From Adhaeribacter aquaticus DSM 16391 (GTDB lineage: Bacteria; Bacteroidota; Bacteroidia; Cytophagales; Hymenobacteraceae): 64,000 bases of DNA. The DNA is taken from the NCBI RefSeq assembly GCF_000473365.1, contig NZ_KI421517.1, positions 2,443,504 through 2,507,503 of the forward strand. Direction: 5' to 3'. Every line of letters starts with the position of its first letter. Position 1 is the stretch's first letter. Of this stretch, positions 2-37,918 are shown piece after piece. Under the pieces are notes generated by a model. That model made no database searches. It saw only the letters and a list, made by a program, of their open reading frames with translations, and had not been told where the DNA came from. A program made the position numbers and the translations under genes.

Positions 2-2113
2 ACCTTAACCTCGGGTGTCAATCCGCCTGGAGCTGCTGTTAAGCCCCAAAACTGGCAAAGCCATGAACAAATTCCCTTACAAAACTTCTATACGAAAGAA
101 GACACGGCTCCATTTGAACATGTAAATTTTGCCGCCGGGATACCACCATACTTACGTGGCCCCTACAGCAGTATGTACGTACGCACCCCCTGGACCATCC
201 GACAATATGCCGGATTTAGTACAGCAGAAGAAAGCAATGCTTTTTACCGGCGCAATCTGGCTGGCGGCCAAAAAGGATTATCCGTAGCGTTTGATTTAGC
301 CACCCACCGGGGTTACGATTCTGACCACCCCCGGGTAGAGGGAGATGTGGGCAAGGCCGGTGTTGCCATTGATTCTATTTTGGACATGAAAATACTTTTT
401 GACCAGATTCCGCTGGACCAGATGAGTGTTTCTATGACCATGAACGGTGCGGTGCTGCCCATTCTGGCTTTTTACATTGTAGCGGCCGAGGAACAAGGTG
501 TACCACAGGAAAAACTAAGTGGCACCATTCAGAATGACATTCTAAAAGAGTTCATGGTGCGCAACACGTACATTTATCCACCGGAGCCCAGCATGCGCAT
601 TATCGCCGATATTTTTGCTTACACCTCGCAGCACATGCCTAAATTTAATTCCATTAGCATAAGCGGGTACCATATGCAAGAGGCCGGCGCCACCGCCGAC
701 CAGGAGCTGGCTTACACCTTAGCCGATGGATTAGAATATGTGCGTACCGGATTAAAAGCAGGTCTGGATATTGATTCTTTTGCGCCGCGCCTTTCTTTTT
801 TTTGGGGCATTGGCATGAACCATTTTATGGAAATAGCCAAGCTCCGGGCGGCCCGCATGCTGTGGGCGAAGCTTATGAAACAATTTAATCCAGCAAATGA
901 AAAGTCGCTGGCCTTACGTACCCACTGCCAGACTTCCGGCTGGAGTTTAACAGAGCAAGACCCATTTAATAATGTTGCCCGCACTACCGTGGAAGCCATG
1001 GCCGCTGCTTTGGGTGGCACCCAAAGTTTACACACCAATGCCCTCGACGAAGCTATTGCCCTGCCCACCGATTTCTCGGCCCGCATTGCCCGCAACACCC
1101 AACTATACCTGCAACACGAAACGCTACTTACTAAAACAGTAGATCCCTGGGGCGGTTCTTATTACGTGGAAGCCCTTACCCACAATTTAGCCTACAAAGC
1201 TTGGGAACTGATTCAGGAGGTAGAAGATTTGGGAGGGATGGCTAAGGCTATTGAAACCGGTTTGCCTAAAATGCGCATAGAGGAAGCTGCTGCCCGTCGT
1301 CAGGCCCGCATCGATTCGGGTAAAGACGTAATTGTGGGCGTAAATAAATATCGTTCTGATGCTCCGGATGATTTCCCGATTGAAATTCTGGATATAGACA
1401 ATACTGCCGTGCGGGAGGCCCAACTGAGACGCCTGCAACACCTAAAAGAAACCCGAAATCAAAATGAGGTTGATGCTGCCCTGACAGCTTTAACCGAGGC
1501 CGCCCGTACGGGCACCGGCAACTTACTTGCATTAAGTATTGATGCTGCGCGTAAACGGGCTACTTTAGGAGAAATATCAACCGCTTTAGAAAAAATATAC
1601 AGCAGACACCGAGCCGTGACCAGAACCATTTCCGGCATTTATTCCGCCGAACTATCCGATGACGAAAATTTTAAAAAAGCACAGGAACTAGCTAATAAAT
1701 TTGCCCAACTGGAAGGCCGGCGTCCGCGCATTATGGTAGCAAAAATGGGCCAGGACGGCCATGACCGGGGCGCTAAAATAATTGCGACTTCTTTTGCTGA
1801 CCTTGGCTTTGATGTAGATATAGGTCCTCTTTTTCAGACCCCAAAGGAAGTAGCCTTGCAAGCGGCTGAAAATGATGTGCACGTGGTAGGCATTAGTAGT
1901 TTAGCAGCCGGCCATAAAACCTTGGTTCCGCAACTAATAGATGAGCTTAAGAAACTGGAGCGCGATGATATTTTAGTAATAGTAGGAGGTGTTATTCCAG
2001 CCCAGGATTACCAGTTTCTAACAGATGCTGGTGTGGCAGGTATATTTGGTCCGGGCACAGTTATAAGTGTGGCTGCGCGCCAGATTTTGGAACGACTGAT
2101 GCAGGAAACATAA
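2..2113 (+). CDS. scpA: Methylmalonyl-CoA mutase, large (B12-binding) subunit; 5' end outside window
   Basis: Adenosylcobalamin enzyme that interconverts succinyl-CoA and (R)-methylmalonyl-CoA in propionate metabolism. The reading frame is open from base 2, and the codons before the first ATG (173) encode the family N-terminus ([20 protein letters not shown]), so the real start lies upstream of the window and 173 is an internal Met. About 703 residues are visible, close to the usual 710-720. The N-terminal TIM barrel carries [12 protein letters not shown]. The C-terminal Rossmann domain has the base-off cobalamin motif DGHDRG (visible residues 585-590, D-x-H-x-x-G). Its chaperone gene meaB lies at 9707, not adjacent. 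The small subunit would be expected just upstream. Identification is firm; the symbol varies (scpA, mutB, mcmA). Confidence 0.96.
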
Positions 2114-5998: not shown

Positions 5999-6601
5999 AT
6001 GGGAATAGTAGAACGTAAACAACGGCAAAAAGAAGAGGTTCGGGGAAGCATCCTGCGGGCTGCCTGGCATTTGGTGCTGGAGGAAGGTTGGCAAGCGCTT
6101 TCTATTCGCAAAATAGCTGATGCAATTGAATACAGCGTTCCGGTAATTTATACTCATTTTGATAACAAAGAGGCCATTTTACATGAGTTTACAAAAGAAG
6201 GTTTTCAGTTATTAAATGCTCAATTAGAAGCAGCTAAAGCACAGCAAACATCTCCTGCAAAAGAGTTAGAAGCCATGGCACATGCCTACTGGAGCTTTGC
6301 ATTTAATCATAAGGAGTACTATCAGCTTATGTATGGTTTAGGCATGCCAACCTGCGAAACAGTAAGACAAGTACCTGAAGTAGGAAAATTTAGTAATCTT
6401 CTAAAATCAAGTATTGAAGAATTAATAAAAGAAAGTAAACGACCTGATATAGATCCTTGGCTTAAGTTTCATACTTATTGGTCAATGTTACACGGATTAA
6501 TTTCTATTAACCTAACAGGTAGAAGTGCAGAGCCTGAGGAATTAAATCAAAGGGTTCTGGAGGATGCAATCTCTGGGTTTATTAAAAACATAGAAAACTA
6601 A
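5999..6601 (+). CDS. TetR/AcrR-family transcriptional regulator (probable autorepressor)
   Basis: 200 residues. A basic N-terminus (MGIVERKQRQKEEVRGSI) leads into a TetR HTH at about residues 12-55 (WQALSIRKIADAIEYSVPVIYTHFDNKEA). The C-terminal domain is of the WHG-like type, with Trp-rich helices such as AHAYWSFAFNHKEYYQLMYGLG. It lies 163 bp upstream of a nitroreductase gene on the same strand. The operator 14-mer TAACA(C/G)TGTTATAA occurs once in front of this gene and twice in front of the nitroreductase, so I infer that the protein controls both. The inducer is unknown; nitro- or quinone-type electrophiles would suit the neighbour. Confidence 0.9.
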   Translation: MGIVERKQRQKEEVRGSILRAAWHLVLEEGWQALSIRKIADAIEYSVPVIYTHFDNKEAILHEFTKEGFQLLNAQLEAAKAQQTSPAKELEAMAHAYWSFAFNHKEYYQLMYGLGMPTCETVRQVPEVGKFSNLLKSSIEELIKESKRPDIDPWLKFHTYWSMLHGLISINLTGRSAEPEELNQRVLEDAISGFIKNIEN

Positions 6602-6620
6602 AATTTTTTAATGCATTACT

Positions 6621-6634
6621 TAACAGTGTTATAA
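6621..6634 (+). promoter_or_regulatory. Operator 2 upstream of the nitroreductase gene
   Basis: TAACAGTGTTATAA is identical to the other two operator copies except for the central base. It lies 20 bp after the TetR stop and 131 bp before the nitroreductase start. A weak -7-like TAAATTTA follows at 6658-6665. Confidence 0.55.
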
Positions 6635-6696
6635 TAAATAATATTGGTAACAAAATATAAATTTAGCTCTAAGTGCTTTTTTTTAGCAACTAATAA

Positions 6697-6710
6697 TAAC
6701 ACTGTTATAA
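6697..6710 (+). promoter_or_regulatory. Operator 3 upstream of the nitroreductase gene
   Basis: TAACACTGTTATAA is an exact copy of operator 1, located 55 bp before the nitroreductase start codon. The core palindrome extends by one pair here (ATAACA-C-TGTTAT). Confidence 0.6.
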
Positions 6711-6764
6711 ATAATAACTACAAACAAAAAAAGAAATTAAATAGCAATTATAAACATTAACAAC

Positions 6765-7397
6765 ATGAGTCTAATACAAGCATTAAACTGGCGCTATGCA
6801 GCCAAACGCATGAATGGTCAAAAAGTACCACAAGATAAAATTAACAATATACTAGAAGCTACTCGTTTATCTCCGTCTTCCATGGGTTTGCAGCCTTATA
6901 CAATTCTTTTAGTGGAAGATGAGGAGTTGCGGAAGCAAATCCAAAAAGTAGCTAACAATCAGCCTCAGATTTTAGAAGCTTCGCATCTTTTAATATTTGC
7001 TGCCTGGGATAACATTACACCAGCTCAAATTGAAGAGTATATAAATCATACGGCAGAGGTGCGTAATGCTGATCCGGCTACCCTGGAAGGTTTTAAAGGT
7101 GCTTTGTTAGGTATTGCCCAAAAAAACACCCAGGAGCAAAACTTCCAGTGGGCTGCCCGTCAGGCCTATATAGCTTTTGGTACCGCCATTGCTGCCGCCG
7201 CTACTGAACAGGTAGATGCTACCCCTATGGAAGGTTTTAATGCGTCCGCGTTAGATGAACTGTTAAACTTAAAAGAAAAGGGTTTACGCAGTGTTACCTT
7301 ATTGCCACTTGGGTACCGCGACACGGCCAATGACTGGCTAGCCAGCCAGAAAAAGGTACGTCGCCAGAAAGATAAGCTTATCGTACAGCTAGCTTAA
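6765..7397 (+). CDS. Nitroreductase-family NAD(P)H-dependent oxidoreductase
   Basis: 210 residues, the usual length for FMN-dependent NfsB/YdgI-like flavoproteins. The N-terminal FMN-phosphate region RYAAKRMNG, the SPSSMGLQPY loop and the C-terminal LPLGYR segment are typical. Such enzymes reduce nitro groups, quinones or flavins in the cytoplasm. It lies downstream of a TetR regulator, with two copies of the putative operator in between, so induction by an electrophile through that regulator is likely. The physiological substrate cannot be read from the sequence. The ATG at 6765 begins the conserved N-terminus MSLIQALNWRYA. Confidence 0.9.
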   Translation: MSLIQALNWRYAAKRMNGQKVPQDKINNILEATRLSPSSMGLQPYTILLVEDEELRKQIQKVANNQPQILEASHLLIFAAWDNITPAQIEEYINHTAEVRNADPATLEGFKGALLGIAQKNTQEQNFQWAARQAYIAFGTAIAAAATEQVDATPMEGFNASALDELLNLKEKGLRSVTLLPLGYRDTANDWLASQKKVRRQKDKLIVQLA

Positions 7398-7506
7398 TTT
7401 AGTTAAGAATTAGCGATTTTTAGTTTTTAGGTTGGGTCTCTTAGAATAAATGATTTATTTTGGGAGACTCTCCTGTTTTAGGACCTGCTAAAATTATAAA
7501 AGTAAC

Positions 7507-8370
7507 ATGTTACGATCTATTAAGAAATTACACGAAGCTAGTTTTGCTCCCATTGATAATTTAATTACTTACCGGGCGCTGCCATCCATTTACCTGCAAA
7601 TGGGAGCACTAGACCCTTTCTTGTTTTTAAACCATCATGGGCCGCAACAATATAAACCCAATAATACGGGCCTACCTTTTGGCCCCCACCCTCACCGGGG
7701 CTTTGAAACCGTTACTTTTATTTTACAAGGTGATATTATGCACCAGGATAGCGGCGGGTATAAAAGTACTATTCAGGCAGGCGGTATCCAGTGGATGACA
7801 GCAGGAAGCGGTCTGATTCATTCGGAAGTGTCGTCGGAAGAATTTAAAGCTAATGGCGGCCCACTCGAAATATTACAGCTCTGGCTAAATCTGCCAGGAC
7901 ATTTAAAAATGACCGAACCTAAGTATACTGGCTTACAAGCAGACGAGATACCCTTGGTTTCTTTGGATGAAGATAAAGTAACGGTACACCTGGTTTCCGG
8001 CAGTTGGGGTGAAAACAAAGCGCCCATCCAATCCTTAACCGATGTTCAACTTTCGTGGATAGATTTTAAAGAAGGTGGCCAATTAGCAACCAGTGCCCCA
8101 GCTGAAAATACTTTATTTTTATATGTAGTAAAAGGAAAAATAAAGGTAAATGGGTATGAGGCAGAAGAACTGCATTTAGTGGAGTTTTATCCCCGGGGCG
8201 AAGAAATAGAAATCCAAGCCTCCGCCGACAGCATCATTTTATTTGGTCATGCCAAACCTTATGGCGAAAAAATAGTAGCCTATGGCCCTTTTGTTATGAA
8301 CTCGGAAGACGAAATTCAACAAGCGTATCAAGATTTTCAGGAAGGAAAATTTGGTACCTGGATCGCGTAA
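7507..8370 (+). CDS. Pirin-family bicupin protein
   Basis: 287 residues, normal for pirins. The N-terminal cupin carries the metal-site motif HPHRGFETVT (His61, His63) and further family signatures MTAGSGLIHSE and LQLWLNLP. The C-terminal cupin follows with the typical ending FGTW. Pirins are cytoplasmic Fe-binding proteins; some act as quercetin dioxygenases or redox-sensitive cofactors. Here it follows the nitroreductase by 109 bp on the same strand, which suggests a shared redox or electrophile-stress role, but I see no operator copy in front of it. A strong terminator follows at 8394. Confidence 0.92.
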   Translation: MLRSIKKLHEASFAPIDNLITYRALPSIYLQMGALDPFLFLNHHGPQQYKPNNTGLPFGPHPHRGFETVTFILQGDIMHQDSGGYKSTIQAGGIQWMTAGSGLIHSEVSSEEFKANGGPLEILQLWLNLPGHLKMTEPKYTGLQADEIPLVSLDEDKVTVHLVSGSWGENKAPIQSLTDVQLSWIDFKEGGQLATSAPAENTLFLYVVKGKIKVNGYEAEELHLVEFYPRGEEIEIQASADSIILFGHAKPYGEKIVAYGPFVMNSEDEIQQAYQDFQEGKFGTWIA

Positions 8371-8393
8371 TTAATTGCTTTTTTAGATATTCT

Positions 8394-8425
8394 AAGGCCA
8401 GTTTTATCGCTGGCCTTTTTCTTTT
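8394..8425 (+). terminator. Rho-independent terminator after the pirin gene
   Basis: AAGGCCAG and CTGGCCTT arms around an 8-nt loop, followed by TTTTTCTTTT. Confidence 0.85.
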
Positions 8426-8571
8426 AGAGAGTTTCTCTGGCTATTTTTAGGGAAAATTAAACTTTCATTTACTGATTATTTTATTTTCTATTCTTAATTT
8501 TAACAAAGGAAGACAATATTACTCCTAAAAATACTTTTGATATTTATATCCAATAAAGGTTAATTTGTAGT

Positions 8572-9705
8572 ATGCTGGTTAAACGCATTTTATTTATTTT
8601 CTTTCTTTTTGTGTGCTTTTCGGTTAAAGCGCAGAAAGAAACCAGTATTTGGTATTTTGGAATAAAAGCTGGCCTGAATTTTAATAAAACCACTCCCGCT
8701 CCGCTGTATAACAGCCAAATGGCAACAAATGAAGGATGTGCCACTATTGCCGACGCTAATGGAAACCTGTTATTTTATACTAATGGGGTCTACGTCTGGA
8801 ATAAGAATCACCTGATTATGCCCAATGGCCACCGCCTTATGGGTCATCGCTCTTCTACCCAATCGGCCTTAATTGTACCCAAGCCCGGCCACCAAACACA
8901 ATATTATGTTTTTACAACTGATTTACAATCGCAGGCGTATGGCCTACGCTATTCTTTAGTAGATATGGTACGTAATGACAGTACCGGGGAGGTAATAGAG
9001 AAAAACATGTTTATGACCTCACCGGTAACCGAAAAATTAACGGCCATAAAACATCAAAACGACCAGGATGTTTGGGTACTGGTACATAAATGGAACTCAG
9101 ATGCATTTGTAGCCTTTCTGGTTACTGATAAAGGAGTAAGCAGAACGCCCGTTACTACTAATATTGGTACCACCCACCGGGGCAAGGGCAAAGGTGCTAT
9201 AGGCTGTATGAAAGCTTCGCCAGACGGTAAAAAAGTAGCATTGGCAATCTGGCGGGATATAAACCAGTTTGAAGTATTTGATTTTGACAACAGCACCGGT
9301 AAGCTTTCTAACCGGGTAACACTGGGTCCGTATCCAGAAGCATATGGCGTAGAATTTTCGCCGGATGGTTCTAAATTATATGGTACCACCAATGGCATTG
9401 GCAGTACCGAGCCGCAAATATGGCAGTTTAACTTAAATGCCGGATCCAAAACAGCCATTGCCAGCTCCGCCATTCTGATCTCTAATTCTAAAACTCATAA
9501 AATTGGGGCTTTGCAATTAGCACCTGATGGTAAAATATACCTGGCCAAAGAAGATGATTCATATCTGGGCGTCATTCATAATCCCAATGCAGCTGGTTGG
9601 TCTTGCCGTTATATTGATAAAGGGCTTTCATTAGGCGACCGTAAAGCCAAATTAGGTCTGCCTAACTTTGTTCAAAGCTATTTTCAGGCTAAACCATTAA
9701 ATTAA
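8572..9705 (+). CDS. Secreted WD40-like beta-propeller protein
   Basis: 377 residues with a signal peptide (cleavage probably after VKAQ, residue 21). It then shows a propeller typical of the N-terminal halves of Bacteroidota gliding/T9SS type-B proteins: SIWYFGIKAGLNF, a FYTNG segment, STQSALIVPKPG, then repeated blades with SPDGKK, FSPDGSKLYGT and LAPDGKIYLA. Unlike those long proteins it has no C-terminal sorting domain, so it is probably periplasmic or surface-associated. The stop is one base before the meaB start, which implies co-transcription, though no functional link to meaB is obvious. A -7-like TTAATTTG with an upstream TTG (N20) lies unusually close to the ATG. Confidence 0.8.
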   Translation: MLVKRILFIFFLFVCFSVKAQKETSIWYFGIKAGLNFNKTTPAPLYNSQMATNEGCATIADANGNLLFYTNGVYVWNKNHLIMPNGHRLMGHRSSTQSALIVPKPGHQTQYYVFTTDLQSQAYGLRYSLVDMVRNDSTGEVIEKNMFMTSPVTEKLTAIKHQNDQDVWVLVHKWNSDAFVAFLVTDKGVSRTPVTTNIGTTHRGKGKGAIGCMKASPDGKKVALAIWRDINQFEVFDFDNSTGKLSNRVTLGPYPEAYGVEFSPDGSKLYGTTNGIGSTEPQIWQFNLNAGSKTAIASSAILISNSKTHKIGALQLAPDGKIYLAKEDDSYLGVIHNPNAAGWSCRYIDKGLSLGDRKAKLGLPNFVQSYFQAKPLN

Positions 9706-24929: not shown

Positions 24930-25910
24930 TTATTTAAACATGCGTTTCCAGGTACCTTTAGTTAAATTATATTTTAAGGTACTGGGCAAAGCTTTCCAAA
25001 AATACTGATTAAGTTCTACGGCAAAACTTGGCTGCATGTAACAATTAATGGTACAACCCTCACAAGCAGGCAATTTACCTTCCAGAGCAATTTGTTCTTT
25101 TACTTCTTTTGACTGGTACAGCTCAAACAGGTTACCATTTATGGGAAACTTCTTTTCACCTAAGTGGTAACAAGGCAATACTAATTGATTTTCCGGTGAA
25201 ATAACTAATGTAGTGCTGGCTGCCTTACAAACTGGATCTAAAATTTGATTACCACCATTTTTACGTAACTGAATAAAACCTTCGTTCAGGTAAACGCTTT
25301 TCCGTTTGCCAAAAGCAGATAAGTATTGTAGTTGTTGCGCATTTAAGCCGGATCCGGTATTAACTTCATTATAATCAAATGCCGGATTTATCAGCAGCAT
25401 TAACTTATTAGGCAAAACTATTTCCTGATAAACTGCCTCCAGCTGATCGATGTTCTCCGCAAATGCCGTAAATAAGATGTCCGGACGCTCGCCCAGGCTT
25501 TTGGCAATGTTTATAGAATCCAAAACAAAATCATAGCAGGCAACGCCCCGGCCAGTATCGTGCTTTTCTTTTTCAAAGGCATCCAAAGAAAAATGCAGCA
25601 TATCTACCTTCCCCTTTAGCCGCTCAGCAAATTTTGGATACAGCAGACAATTGGTGGTAAGCGTAGTAATGAAGCCCATATCATGTGCTAACTTCAGAAA
25701 ACTATCTATCTGCTGGTGCAAAAGGGGTTCACCGCCGGTAAAATCAATTACGTTTACCCCCAGCTTCTTCAGGTCTTTCAGATTCTGCTCTACCTCCTCC
25801 AATTTGATATAAGGCGATGGTTTCTCCCAGATGTCACAGAATGAGCACCGTGCATTGCACCTGTACGTGACATAGTAATTACACAAAACGGGATGAGAAA
25901 CAAGACGCAT
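24930..25910 (-). CDS. Radical SAM protein with C-terminal cysteine cluster
   Basis: 326 residues. The radical SAM [4Fe-4S] motif is canonical: Cys18-x3-Cys22-x2-Cys25 in RCNARCSFCDIW, followed by VIDFTGGEPLLH (SAM-binding GGE). A C-terminal LPACEGCTINCYMQ cluster (about 284-294) suggests a SPASM-like auxiliary cluster. Family members make peptide or small-molecule modifications; some Bacteroidota homologues sit in lipid or cofactor loci. Neighbours here give no clear substrate. ATG at 25910. Confidence 0.88.
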   Translation of the reverse strand: MRLVSHPVLCNYYVTYRCNARCSFCDIWEKPSPYIKLEEVEQNLKDLKKLGVNVIDFTGGEPLLHQQIDSFLKLAHDMGFITTLTTNCLLYPKFAERLKGKVDMLHFSLDAFEKEKHDTGRGVACYDFVLDSINIAKSLGERPDILFTAFAENIDQLEAVYQEIVLPNKLMLLINPAFDYNEVNTGSGLNAQQLQYLSAFGKRKSVYLNEGFIQLRKNGGNQILDPVCKAASTTLVISPENQLVLPCYHLGEKKFPINGNLFELYQSKEVKEQIALEGKLPACEGCTINCYMQPSFAVELNQYFWKALPSTLKYNLTKGTWKRMFK

Positions 25911-33618: not shown

Positions 33619-33843
33619 ATGAAAGAAGAAGATAAAGACAAATCAGCTAAAGCCGTAGTAGCCGAAGGAGAAAAAGTAACGGGCGGGTCTGATGGATCCG
33701 AAACAACCGGGCCAGACGAAAATGCAGGGGTAGTTACGCCTCCTAATTTAGGGGAAGACACCAGCAATGAATCTGAAACCAAGAAAGAGGACATGGATAG
33801 CTATAACGAACATCCGGACCAGGCAAAGGTTGGTGGTGGATAA
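33619..33843 (+). CDS. Small acidic, low-complexity protein
   Basis: 74 residues, rich in Glu, Asp, Lys, Ser and Gly; almost no hydrophobic core, so probably disordered and cytoplasmic. It has a plausible ATG and ends 20 bp before a good terminator (33863), which supports real expression. I recognise no family. The opposite-strand frame (33579-33794) is less likely, because the terminator orientation and composition favour this one. Confidence 0.6.
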   Translation: MKEEDKDKSAKAVVAEGEKVTGGSDGSETTGPDENAGVVTPPNLGEDTSNESETKKEDMDSYNEHPDQAKVGGG

Positions 33844-33862: not shown

Positions 33863-33890
33863 AAAAAGAGGCGCACCTGCGTCTCTTTTT
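33863..33890 (+). terminator. Terminator after the small acidic protein gene
   Basis: AAAAAGAG/CTCTTTTT arms extended by a G-U pair and CGC/GCG around a 4-nt loop. Confidence 0.8.
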
Positions 33891-34020: not shown

Positions 34021-36225
34021 TTGAAAAAGCCCGTAACTCTGCTTATTACCCCTCCGCTTACACAGCTGAACACGCCGTATCCGGCCACTCCCTACCTAAA
34101 AGGTTTTTTAGGTAAAAAAGGGTTTACGGTACATCAGGCGGATTTCGGTATTGAGCTGGTACTGAAGCTATTTTCCAAAGCAGGCTTAACCCGTGCTTTT
34201 GCAGCAGCAGAACAAAAAGAGCAAGAGCTTTCAGATAATAGCAACCGTATTTTGCGCCTGAAGCCCTACTATTTGCAGACGATTGAGCCCGTAATCCGGT
34301 TTTTACAGAACAAGGACAATACCCTGGCCCAGCAAATCTGCTACAATAGTTTCTTGCCGGAGGCTTCCCGATTCGATCAGATAGCCGATCTGGAATATGC
34401 TTTTGGGAACATGGGGATTACCGACCGGGCCCGCCATTTGGCTACCTTGTACTTAGAGGACTTAGGCGATCTAATTCAGGAAGCCGTTTGCCCCTACTTC
34501 GGGTTCAGCCGGTACGCCGACAAGCTGGCTATGTCGGCCACCACGTTTGATGCCTTAGAATTAGCTTTAAACGAGGAGCCCAACTTAGTAGATCAAATGC
34601 TGTTAGAATTAATTGCCGATAAGCTTACCCAGGTTAAGCCGGACATGGTAGGCTTTTCTATTCCTTTCCCGGGTAATTTGTACGGTGGTTTACGCTTGGC
34701 ACAATACATTAAAGCCTATAATCCCGAAATAAAAACGTTGATGGGTGGCGGCTACCCGAATACGGAGCTTCGCAGCCTAAACGAACTTAAACTGTTCCGT
34801 TACATTGATTTTGTTACGCTGGACGATGGAGAAGGTCCGTGGCTCAAGATTATGGAATACTGGCAAGGACAACGACCAGCTAACCAATTGCAACGGACTT
34901 TCATGTTGGAAAATGAGCAGGTAGTTTATCAGAATAACTGCACCGATCCGGATATACCGCATACCGAAGTAGGCACGCCTGATTACAGTGATTTACCTTT
35001 GCCGGATTATTTATCGGTAATTGAAGTTACCAACCCCATGCACCGGCTTTGGAGCGATGGCCGCTGGAATAAATTAACGGTAGCACATGGCTGTTACTGG
35101 AAACGCTGCTCTTTCTGCGATATTACCTTAGATTACATTTCGCGTTACGAAACGGCACCGGCTACTTTATTAGTCGACCGCATTGAAGAAATAATAGCCC
35201 AAACGGGTCAGACCGGTTTTCATTTTGTAGACGAAGCAGCTCCCCCTCTGGCCCTTCGTGATTTAGCCATTGAATTACTGCGCCGGAATGTAAAAATTAC
35301 CTGGTGGGGCAATATTCGTTTCGAAAAAACTTTCACCCCTGATATCTGTCGGTTACTGGCAGCGTCGGGCTGTATTGCTGTTTCCGGGGGATTAGAAGTA
35401 GCCTCGGACCGATTACTTGCACTAATGGAAAAAGGCGTTACCATTTCGCAAGTGGCCCGGGTTACGGATGGATTTACCGCCTCCGGCATTATGGTGCACG
35501 CTTACCTCATGTATGGCTTCCCCACCCAAACAGCTCAGGAAACCATTGACTCCCTGGAAGTAGTGCGCCAGTTATTTGAGAATAATGTTATTCAATCCGG
35601 TTTCTGGCATCGCTTTTCGATGACCGCTCATAGCCCCGTTGGAAAGAATCCGGAAAAATACGGTGTAGTTAAGGTGGGGCCACCAGCAGGAAACTTTGCT
35701 AATAATGATTTGTGGCACAAGGATCCGAAAGGAGCCGATCATGAATTATTTGGAGCCGGTTTATCTAAATCTATCTACAATTACATGCATGGCATTGGCC
35801 TGGAAGAGCCTTTGCAATTTTGGTTCGATTTTAAAGTCCCTCGCCCAACGCATCCGCGGCATTTGATTGCACAGGCTATTTCGGTTTCTCCTAAGCCCGA
35901 TGGTGAAAAAAAGAACTTACGGGTATTTTGGTTAGGCAATATTCCTGCATTAGAAATAGTTAAAACCCAGAAAAAAGGGAAGCTAATAGAACGGGCAGTA
36001 CTTACTTTTTATGAAAAAGCTGAGGACATTCAGCTTAAAACCACCCCGGTTATTGGGCAGTGGCTGGCCCAGATTCTTAGCTTGCTCAATCAGGATTATC
36101 AGACTAAAATCTTATTAAAAGAGCTGGAACTATCTTTTCCTCCGGAAGCCAATATGCCTTTTGCACAGTTCCTGATATCACCGGAATGGCTGTTGCTCCG
36201 CGAAAAAGGAATGTTAATAATCTAG
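34021..36225 (+). CDS. B12-binding-domain radical SAM enzyme
   Basis: 734 residues. The N-terminal half is a cobalamin-binding-like Rossmann region (VGFSIPFPGNLYGGLRLAQYI, TLMGGGYPNTELR) without the base-off D-x-H-x-x-G motif. The radical SAM domain begins with HGCYWKRCSFCD, where Cys358, Cys363 and Cys366 are spaced C-x4-C-x2-C, one residue longer than the usual C-x3-C-x2-C. IAVSGGLEVASDRLL and MVHAYLMYGFPTQT follow. Such enzymes methylate or rearrange unactivated carbons; the substrate is unknown. The start must be TTG at 34021: a stop lies at 34000 and no ATG precedes the conserved LLITPPLTQLNTPYPATPYL. No partner gene adjoins it. Confidence 0.88.
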   Translation: MKKPVTLLITPPLTQLNTPYPATPYLKGFLGKKGFTVHQADFGIELVLKLFSKAGLTRAFAAAEQKEQELSDNSNRILRLKPYYLQTIEPVIRFLQNKDNTLAQQICYNSFLPEASRFDQIADLEYAFGNMGITDRARHLATLYLEDLGDLIQEAVCPYFGFSRYADKLAMSATTFDALELALNEEPNLVDQMLLELIADKLTQVKPDMVGFSIPFPGNLYGGLRLAQYIKAYNPEIKTLMGGGYPNTELRSLNELKLFRYIDFVTLDDGEGPWLKIMEYWQGQRPANQLQRTFMLENEQVVYQNNCTDPDIPHTEVGTPDYSDLPLPDYLSVIEVTNPMHRLWSDGRWNKLTVAHGCYWKRCSFCDITLDYISRYETAPATLLVDRIEEIIAQTGQTGFHFVDEAAPPLALRDLAIELLRRNVKITWWGNIRFEKTFTPDICRLLAASGCIAVSGGLEVASDRLLALMEKGVTISQVARVTDGFTASGIMVHAYLMYGFPTQTAQETIDSLEVVRQLFENNVIQSGFWHRFSMTAHSPVGKNPEKYGVVKVGPPAGNFANNDLWHKDPKGADHELFGAGLSKSIYNYMHGIGLEEPLQFWFDFKVPRPTHPRHLIAQAISVSPKPDGEKKNLRVFWLGNIPALEIVKTQKKGKLIERAVLTFYEKAEDIQLKTTPVIGQWLAQILSLLNQDYQTKILLKELELSFPPEANMPFAQFLISPEWLLLREKGMLII

Positions 36226-37396: not shown

Positions 37397-37918
37397 TTAA
37401 AATACCTTTTCCATAATAAAATCATGTTGCACATCCTGGCCCAGCACAAAATCTTCATCGCCTACTATTTTAAACCCATATTTCTGATAAAGAGCCAGCG
37501 CCCCCGTATTATGTTCCCAAACCGTTAACCAAATCACTTTACACTCTTTTTTCTTGGCAAAATCAAAAGATTGTTTTAATAGCTCAGTCCCCAGGCCCTT
37601 TCCGCACCATTTGGGCAGGAGGTATAACCGGGCAATTTTCATTTGGTTAGAGCTGGTGATACAGGCTGGAGCTGGACCAAAATAAAATTTAATGTACCCC
37701 ACAACAGCCTCCTGAACACTAATAATCCAGAATATGGTTTGTGGATCGTTTAGTTCAGCCGCTTGCAAAGATGGATTAAAAGCAGTTGGCAAATAAGCCG
37801 CCATATCTTCGGGTGTATTTGCGGCTCCAAAAGCCGCCTCAAACGTTTCCCAACCTAATTGGGCTAATAATTCATTGTCGGATGCCGTGGCAACTCTAAC
37901 AGAGAAGGAGGTTTTCAA
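37397..37918 (-). CDS. GNAT N-acetyltransferase
   Basis: 173 residues with the acetyl-CoA fold: VGYIKFYFG, then ARLYLLPKWCGKGLGTELLKQSF (the Q/R-x-x-G-x-G/A loop appears as CGKGLG) and LTVWEHNTGALALYQKYGF. The family acetylates amines such as spermidine-like or peptide substrates; the target is unknown. Its 5' flank contains a 29-bp perfect tandem repeat, and another GNAT lies just upstream on the same strand. Confidence 0.92.
   Translation of the reverse strand: MKTSFSVRVATASDNELLAQLGWETFEAAFGAANTPEDMAAYLPTAFNPSLQAAELNDPQTIFWIISVQEAVVGYIKFYFGPAPACITSSNQMKIARLYLLPKWCGKGLGTELLKQSFDFAKKKECKVIWLTVWEHNTGALALYQKYGFKIVGDEDFVLGQDVQHDFIMEKVF

Follow-up and report, generated by a model that had tools for sequence, protein, structure and literature searches.

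A conserved family of predicted cobalamin-dependent radical SAM proteins with CX4CX2C cluster spacing, represented in Adhaeribacter aquaticus

The window analyzed here is a stretch of 64,000 nucleotides from Adhaeribacter aquaticus DSM 16391, and one of its genes encodes a radical SAM protein with a B12-binding domain. Sequence comparisons place it in a B12 radical SAM family that has no name, is well conserved and is near-universal in Hymenobacteraceae. According to its sequence and its structural model, the protein would be a cobalamin-dependent radical SAM enzyme, present in a single copy and acting on its own, and in all likelihood a methyltransferase; we hold this reading with moderate confidence. 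The CX4CX2C spacing of the cluster cysteines is a stable trait of this enzyme family; it is not new chemistry and has already been described. The gene and its cluster loop are as follows.

34021..36225, + strand: B12-binding-domain radical SAM protein of the CX4CX2C family, 734 aa, TTG start
35092..35118, + strand: cluster loop Cys358-YWKR-Cys363-SF-Cys366 (CX4CX2C)

The frame is open on the + strand from the TTG at 34021 through the stop at 36225, and the cluster motif of the protein, GCYWKRCSFCD, contains Cys358, Cys363 and Cys366. The sequence-only reading had described this motif as one residue longer than that of the radical SAM protein encoded at 24930-25910 (- strand), and the sequence does read so: the comparison protein reads TYRCNARCSFCD, with CNARCSFC, that is, CX3CX2C. 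Among the 18 PF04055 matches in the host genome 17 have CX3CX2C, and CX4CX2C is seen solely in the 34021-36225 protein. In the latter, PF04055 covers residues 354-513 with 38.9 bits (cut-off 29.5), and this match above the cut-off, combined with the three conserved cluster Cys, places the protein in the radical SAM superfamily. Of the six PF02310 (B12-binding) matches in the genome, no other is a radical SAM protein. For the 24930-25910 protein, the top sub-threshold NCBIfam match is PTO1314 (92 bits vs 306), with viperin and MoaA below it and HpnH further down.

The CX4CX2C spacing has been found in 124 of 125 distinct family proteins, drawn from 143 loci, and in 88 of 89 loci of a smaller survey, in which some species are counted twice. 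The 125-protein set was picked by an expression assuming G-[C/Y]-[Y/F]-W, with the second and third Cys not assumed, and a protein was obtained from all of the 143 loci scanned (143/143). Thus, the deviation is conserved across a distinct family, the homologues do not show the canonical spacing, and a private insertion in the Adhaeribacter copy is ruled out.

The core motif of the family is C-Y-W-x-x-C-[STA]-F-C. Y359 and W360 are invariant in a 16-row alignment, and the two residues after W360 are variable among the 125 distinct proteins, so the spacing is fixed, yet no single "extra residue" is. Hence, when homologues are aligned, as proposed earlier, to see whether the extra residue is invariant, the length proves constant and the residue does not. 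The single exception among the 125 proteins is that of Cloacibacterium normanense (L087, 7989-10175, + strand), which reads G-Tyr-YWGKCTFC, the first cluster Cys being replaced by Tyr; as the frame is otherwise open, either the sequence is in error here or the copy has been inactivated.

Among the best 30 phylum loci for TIGR03975, 11 belong to the CX4CX2C family, and all of these (11/11) have CX4CX2C; 17 of the other 19 have CX3CX2C, and two lack the motif by the expression used. In six remote relatives from a plasmid collection, CX4CX2C is present in four (L124, L125, L171, L172), and the remaining two, annotated as RiPP C-methyltransferases (L170, L173), have CX7CX2C.

Orthologues occur in 199 of 200 Hymenobacteraceae genomes (E<=1e-40), and the distribution in the phylum is patchy (66 of 395 genomes, 29 of 171 genera, E<=1e-60). 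Being kept in nearly all genomes of one family with no linked pathway, the gene suggests a role in basic physiology. The closest named records are from Adhaeribacter (83-85%), other named carriers being Pontibacter, Rufibacter, Hymenobacter, Flammeovirga, Chryseobacterium, Kaistella, Nitrospira MAGs and a Delongbacteria MAG. Plasmid-collection copies (at least 80% cover, more than 50% identity) come from Aureibacter, Ideonella, Parabacteroides and Vitreoscilla and are annotated merely as "radical SAM protein", and no phage copies are seen at E<=1e-6. In a 45-row tree 39 family rows are split from the six plasmid relatives with support 100/99; these relatives, chosen from 28 plasmid records of which most are copies belonging to a single Streptomyces species (the records H7, H25 and H27 were left out), are on very long branches, which makes the deeper tree order unsafe. 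No description of the CX4CX2C family was found in the titles and abstract starts of the open-access literature searched.

The phylogenetic profile is uninformative on B12 dependence: the MetH domain is encoded in 367 of the 395 phylum genomes, and of the 66 genomes with the radical SAM gene 62 have it. The four carriers without the MetH activation domain belong to one genus (G237, G253, G298, G361) and encode B12-binding domains in frames of 718 and 1159 codons, which are probably mutases. In the window, a B12-binding domain at 1727-2071 (+ strand) lies in a 715-codon frame (G000:C1:2445230), which is probably a methylmalonyl-CoA mutase large subunit. No Rfam match to a B12 riboswitch was obtained in the window at gathering scores.

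The full-length AlphaFold model (16 sequences) has pLDDT 85.0 and pTM 0.86. Together with the profile matches and a separate model of the C-terminus, it gives the following layout.

34021..34875, + strand: N-terminal cobalamin-binding-type Rossmann domain, residues ~1-285 (PF02310, strands, fold match)
34144..34584, + strand: all-helical insertion within the Rossmann domain, residues ~42-188 (secondary structure of the model)
35053..35829, + strand: radical SAM barrel, residues ~345-603 (PF04055 on 354-513; VIA rows spanning 2-603)
35230..35235, + strand: invariant Asp404-Glu405, directly after strand 399-403 (16-row alignment and model)
35830..36222, + strand: optional C-terminal domain, residues 604-734, predicted winged helix (separate model, VIA)

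The strands of the predicted Rossmann domain are 5-10, 36-41, 209-213 and 238-242. PF02310 covers residues 196-272 with 30.5 bits, below the cut-off of 32.1, and reaches 33 bits, above the cut-off, in the genome scan. The match may be partial because the predicted helical stretch of about 147 residues (42-188) splits the domain. By its matches and its model, the protein thus appears to have the architecture of cobalamin-dependent radical SAM enzymes, a Rossmann domain joined to a radical SAM barrel. Asp404-Glu405 is proposed to be a SAM-contact position, a counterpart of the Glu found near SAM in TsrM and OxsB (Glu273 and Glu363, PMC8992657).

Comparison of residues 2-603 of the model with known structures gives OxsB as the top VIA match (Z 21.4, rmsd 2.9, 404 aligned), along with AprD4 (Z 19.9, rmsd 3.4 over 411), TsrM (Z 19.2), MgmA (Z 19.0), CysS (Z 17.3) and TokK (Z 16.5). 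The top Foldseek matches are TsrM (9.5e-13) and OxsB (4.3e-12). Among PDB sequences, phmmer yields no match at E<=0.01, and a profile search yields MgmA (9ccb, 0.004), AprD4 (0.019) and three ELP3 entries (0.53-0.59). The absence of a structure from the VIA tables was not taken as its exclusion. The B12-type radical SAM identity assumed by the sequence-only reading is therefore upheld by three lines: PF04055 above its cut-off, the PF02310 match, and the fold match to OxsB, TsrM and MgmA.

The fold by itself proves neither methylation nor cobalamin binding, since the matches include OxsB, which is not known to be a methylase, and AprD4, a diol dehydratase according to the title of its structure entry. 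They also include two B12-free methylthiotransferases, with Z up to 16.6 for MiaB and Z 15.4 for RimO. The methyltransferase reading also draws on the sequence relatives. None of the 15 NCBIfam families listed reaches its cut-off, the protein being far below all of them, and the two best relatives, both sub-threshold, are methyltransferases: TIGR03975, the RiPP C-methyltransferase (87.5 bits vs a cut-off of 281.85, 7.5e-25), and TIGR04479, the PhpK P-methyltransferase (82.5 bits vs 600, 2.1e-23). Further points in favor of a cobalamin-dependent methyltransferase are the five other B12-binding-domain matches in the host, the cluster Cys kept throughout the family, and GenD1, which is active with the same Cx4Cx2C.

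In such an enzyme, Cys358, Cys363 and Cys366 would hold an ordinary [4Fe-4S] cluster. A first SAM would methylate cob(I)alamin, and a second one would be cleaved to give the 5'-deoxyadenosyl radical. This would abstract hydrogen from the substrate, and the radical so formed on the substrate would accept the methyl from methylcobalamin. By analogy with GenD1, the extra residue would alter the loop and not the chemistry. The abstract of PMC12846815 sets out this scheme with two SAM for such methylases. We infer the methylation step, because AprD4, which does not methylate, and OxsB, which is not known to, have the same fold.

The strongest competitor is a B12 radical SAM enzyme without methylating activity, which would act on a small molecule or lipid by rearranging, cyclising or dehydrating it, in the way of OxsB, BchE and AprD4. 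The two top VIA matches fit this, as neither OxsB nor AprD4 is known to be a methylase, and BzaD, BchE and the ladderane family are among the other sub-threshold NCBIfam matches. Still, the scores of OxsB, AprD4, TsrM and MgmA differ by no more than 2.4 Z units, the fold does not separate these enzymes, and the two best family matches are the methyltransferases named above. We consider a non-methylating enzyme doubtful.

For the methyltransferase, a peptide or protein substrate is weakly favored because of the kinship with TIGR03975 and the winged helix at the C-terminus. The 131 C-terminal residues folded alone (34 sequences) give a model with pLDDT 90.8, in which strands 31-34, 40-48, 51-60 and 67-71 are followed by helices 73-88, 96-101, 111-115 and 118-126 and a strand 128-130. 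In the comparison of this domain by VIA, the top rows include residues 3-89 of ThcOx (Z 5.7), residues 6-84 of the heterocyclase 4v1u (Z 5.6, rmsd 2.8 over 77), and TbiB1 (Z 5.3, rmsd 2.8 over 79), the structure of which contains a leader peptide. We take 4v1u to be LynD, and the matched stretches of ThcOx and 4v1u are presumably RREs. All these RRE-like matches are weak (Z under 8) and tie with MINA53 (Z 5.9), NovN, GdmN and a Rickettsia PKMT. An RRE is defined by strand-strand-strand followed by helix-helix-helix (PMC12710340), and the predicted domain has this order of elements, with extra ones.

Searches with the domain give little more. Foldseek returns nothing at E<=0.001, PDB sequences give no meaningful match (best E 0.94), and Pfam at E<=10 gives no match in five C-termini (residues 604-734, L050, L069, L079, L086). 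When compared by hhalign with 17 PqqD proteins, the domain has a weak probability of 3.1% and a score of 17.2, vs 8.0-13.2 for eight reversed or shuffled control profiles. Of the 125 distinct proteins, 115 have the domain and 10 lack it (a script called 111 present and 5 absent, and nine tails judged by eye gave four present and five absent), and so it is not essential to the reaction. We regard the domain as a winged helix with a predicted shape like that of an RRE and a putative role in peptide binding; the winged-helix reading is new in this analysis.

Given this domain, the methyltransferase could C-methylate a peptide or a protein of the cell that is encoded elsewhere in the genome and is gripped by the winged helix. 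We put this forward tentatively and with less than even confidence. An unlikely special form of it is a core metabolic or housekeeping enzyme of Hymenobacteraceae and other Bacteroidota, which would C-methylate a conserved cellular protein, e.g. a ribosomal or secreted one, via the fused winged helix. If true, it would parallel in bacteria the archaeal MCR-modifying MgmA and Mmp10, outside any antibiotic or RiPP cluster.

The neighboring genes offer no convincing substrate clue. Of 60 loci compared, 22 have a GNAT acetyltransferase gene nearby (in the window at 37397-37918, on the opposite strand) and 24 have uvrB, both recurring within Hymenobacteraceae, and in Weeksellaceae a fixed gene block recurs around the radical SAM gene; we read these recurring neighbors as local synteny. 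Among the 25 largest clusters of the 60 loci, only three cross family lines: pruA in 6 loci (two Lanier MAGs and four of the Adhaeribacter group), a gene resembling a sensor in 5, and shikimate dehydrogenase in 4. A further 43 loci, which include 17 of the earlier ones, have nothing more widely shared than an ABC-type ATPase family (6 loci), next to a sensor/ATPase-like family (5 loci); in Parabacteroides the radical SAM gene follows yihA, which clusters with no other of the 43 loci. Hence no neighbor is shared beyond local synteny, and the earlier remark that no partner gene hints at a substrate holds beyond the host genome, in the 60 and 43 loci compared. At locus L129 of the distant genome G265 (6571-9600, - strand), the gene lies beside one for another protein whose start is radical SAM-like, with CX3CX2C, and which resembles the spore photoproduct lyase/Rv2578c type.

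If the enzyme were a RiPP C-methyltransferase whose precursor peptide is encoded at a distant site, this would agree with TIGR03975 as the closest named family and with the RRE-like shape predicted for the C-terminal domain. Against it, the TIGR03975 score is well short of the cut-off, the first gap is CX4 and not CX7, and among 440 clusters of short ORFs (20-110 aa, within 1500 nt on either side, low-complexity filter on) none joins Hymenobacteraceae with another family and no precursor peptide was found. A gene present in all but one of 200 Hymenobacteraceae genomes would also be unlike a typical RiPP cluster. Altogether, this origin is quite improbable. In the window, an ORF of 74 aa, acidic and of low complexity, precedes the radical SAM gene on its 5' side (33619-33843, + strand) and was rejected as a precursor peptide: its best match outside its own genome has E 0.018 and is of low complexity, and a 12-pair terminator-like hairpin (33863-33890) separates it from the gene, hairpins there being no commoner than in shuffles. 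The ORF has no convincing homologue at the same place in other genera.

The sequence-only reading had also supposed that altered spacing marks a subfamily of unknown chemistry, and this has not survived. Cx4Cx2C is published for GenD1, GenK and Sis14 (PMC4340712), so the spacing was already described for a characterized subfamily. In that paper, GenD1 is a cobalamin-dependent radical SAM methyltransferase in vitro: the purified enzyme, given methylcobalamin, SAM, viologen and NADPH, converts 84-88% of the substrate and forms 5'-deoxyadenosine, with zero product when cobalamin or viologen is left out (PMC4340712). PoyC, with Cx7Cx2C, is active as well, methylating valine and forming 5'-dA (PMC5682303). 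Departures from the usual spacing are called "not unusual" in PMC8992657, and the characteristic of the superfamily is given as CX3CX2C or CX4CX2C in PMC3087415. Although 124 of the 125 distinct proteins keep the spacing and 17 of the 19 other TIGR03975-like phylum proteins have CX3CX2C (two giving no motif by the expression used), a new kind of cluster chemistry is hardly credible and largely refuted, as GenD1 cleaves SAM in the standard manner with the same spacing and PoyC methylates with a longer one. The spacing question is thus settled, CX4CX2C being compatible with ordinary radical SAM methylation, and the remaining interest is in a conserved orphan enzyme family.

Compared with known systems, the protein resembles OxsB, TsrM, MgmA, CysS and AprD4 in its predicted fold over residues ~1-608 (Z 17-21) and differs from them in sequence, with 10-18% identity in the rows shown. 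The TIGR03975/PoyC-like RiPP C-methyltransferases are the closest sequence family, and their first Cys gap is also lengthened, while it is CX7CX2C in PoyC (PMC5682303) and in the two members L170 and L173, and CX4CX2C here; next to the TIGR03975-type L173 lies a RiPP epimerase gene, and TIGR03975 is above its cut-off in none of 198 phylum genomes. PhpK (TIGR04479) is the second-closest sequence family, at 82.5 bits vs 600. Finally, GenD1, GenK and Sis14 are B12-dependent radical SAM proteins whose published motif, Cx4Cx2C (PMC4340712), has the spacing of this predicted B12 radical SAM protein, and they differ in belonging to the gentamicin and sisomicin pathways, with aminoglycoside substrates.
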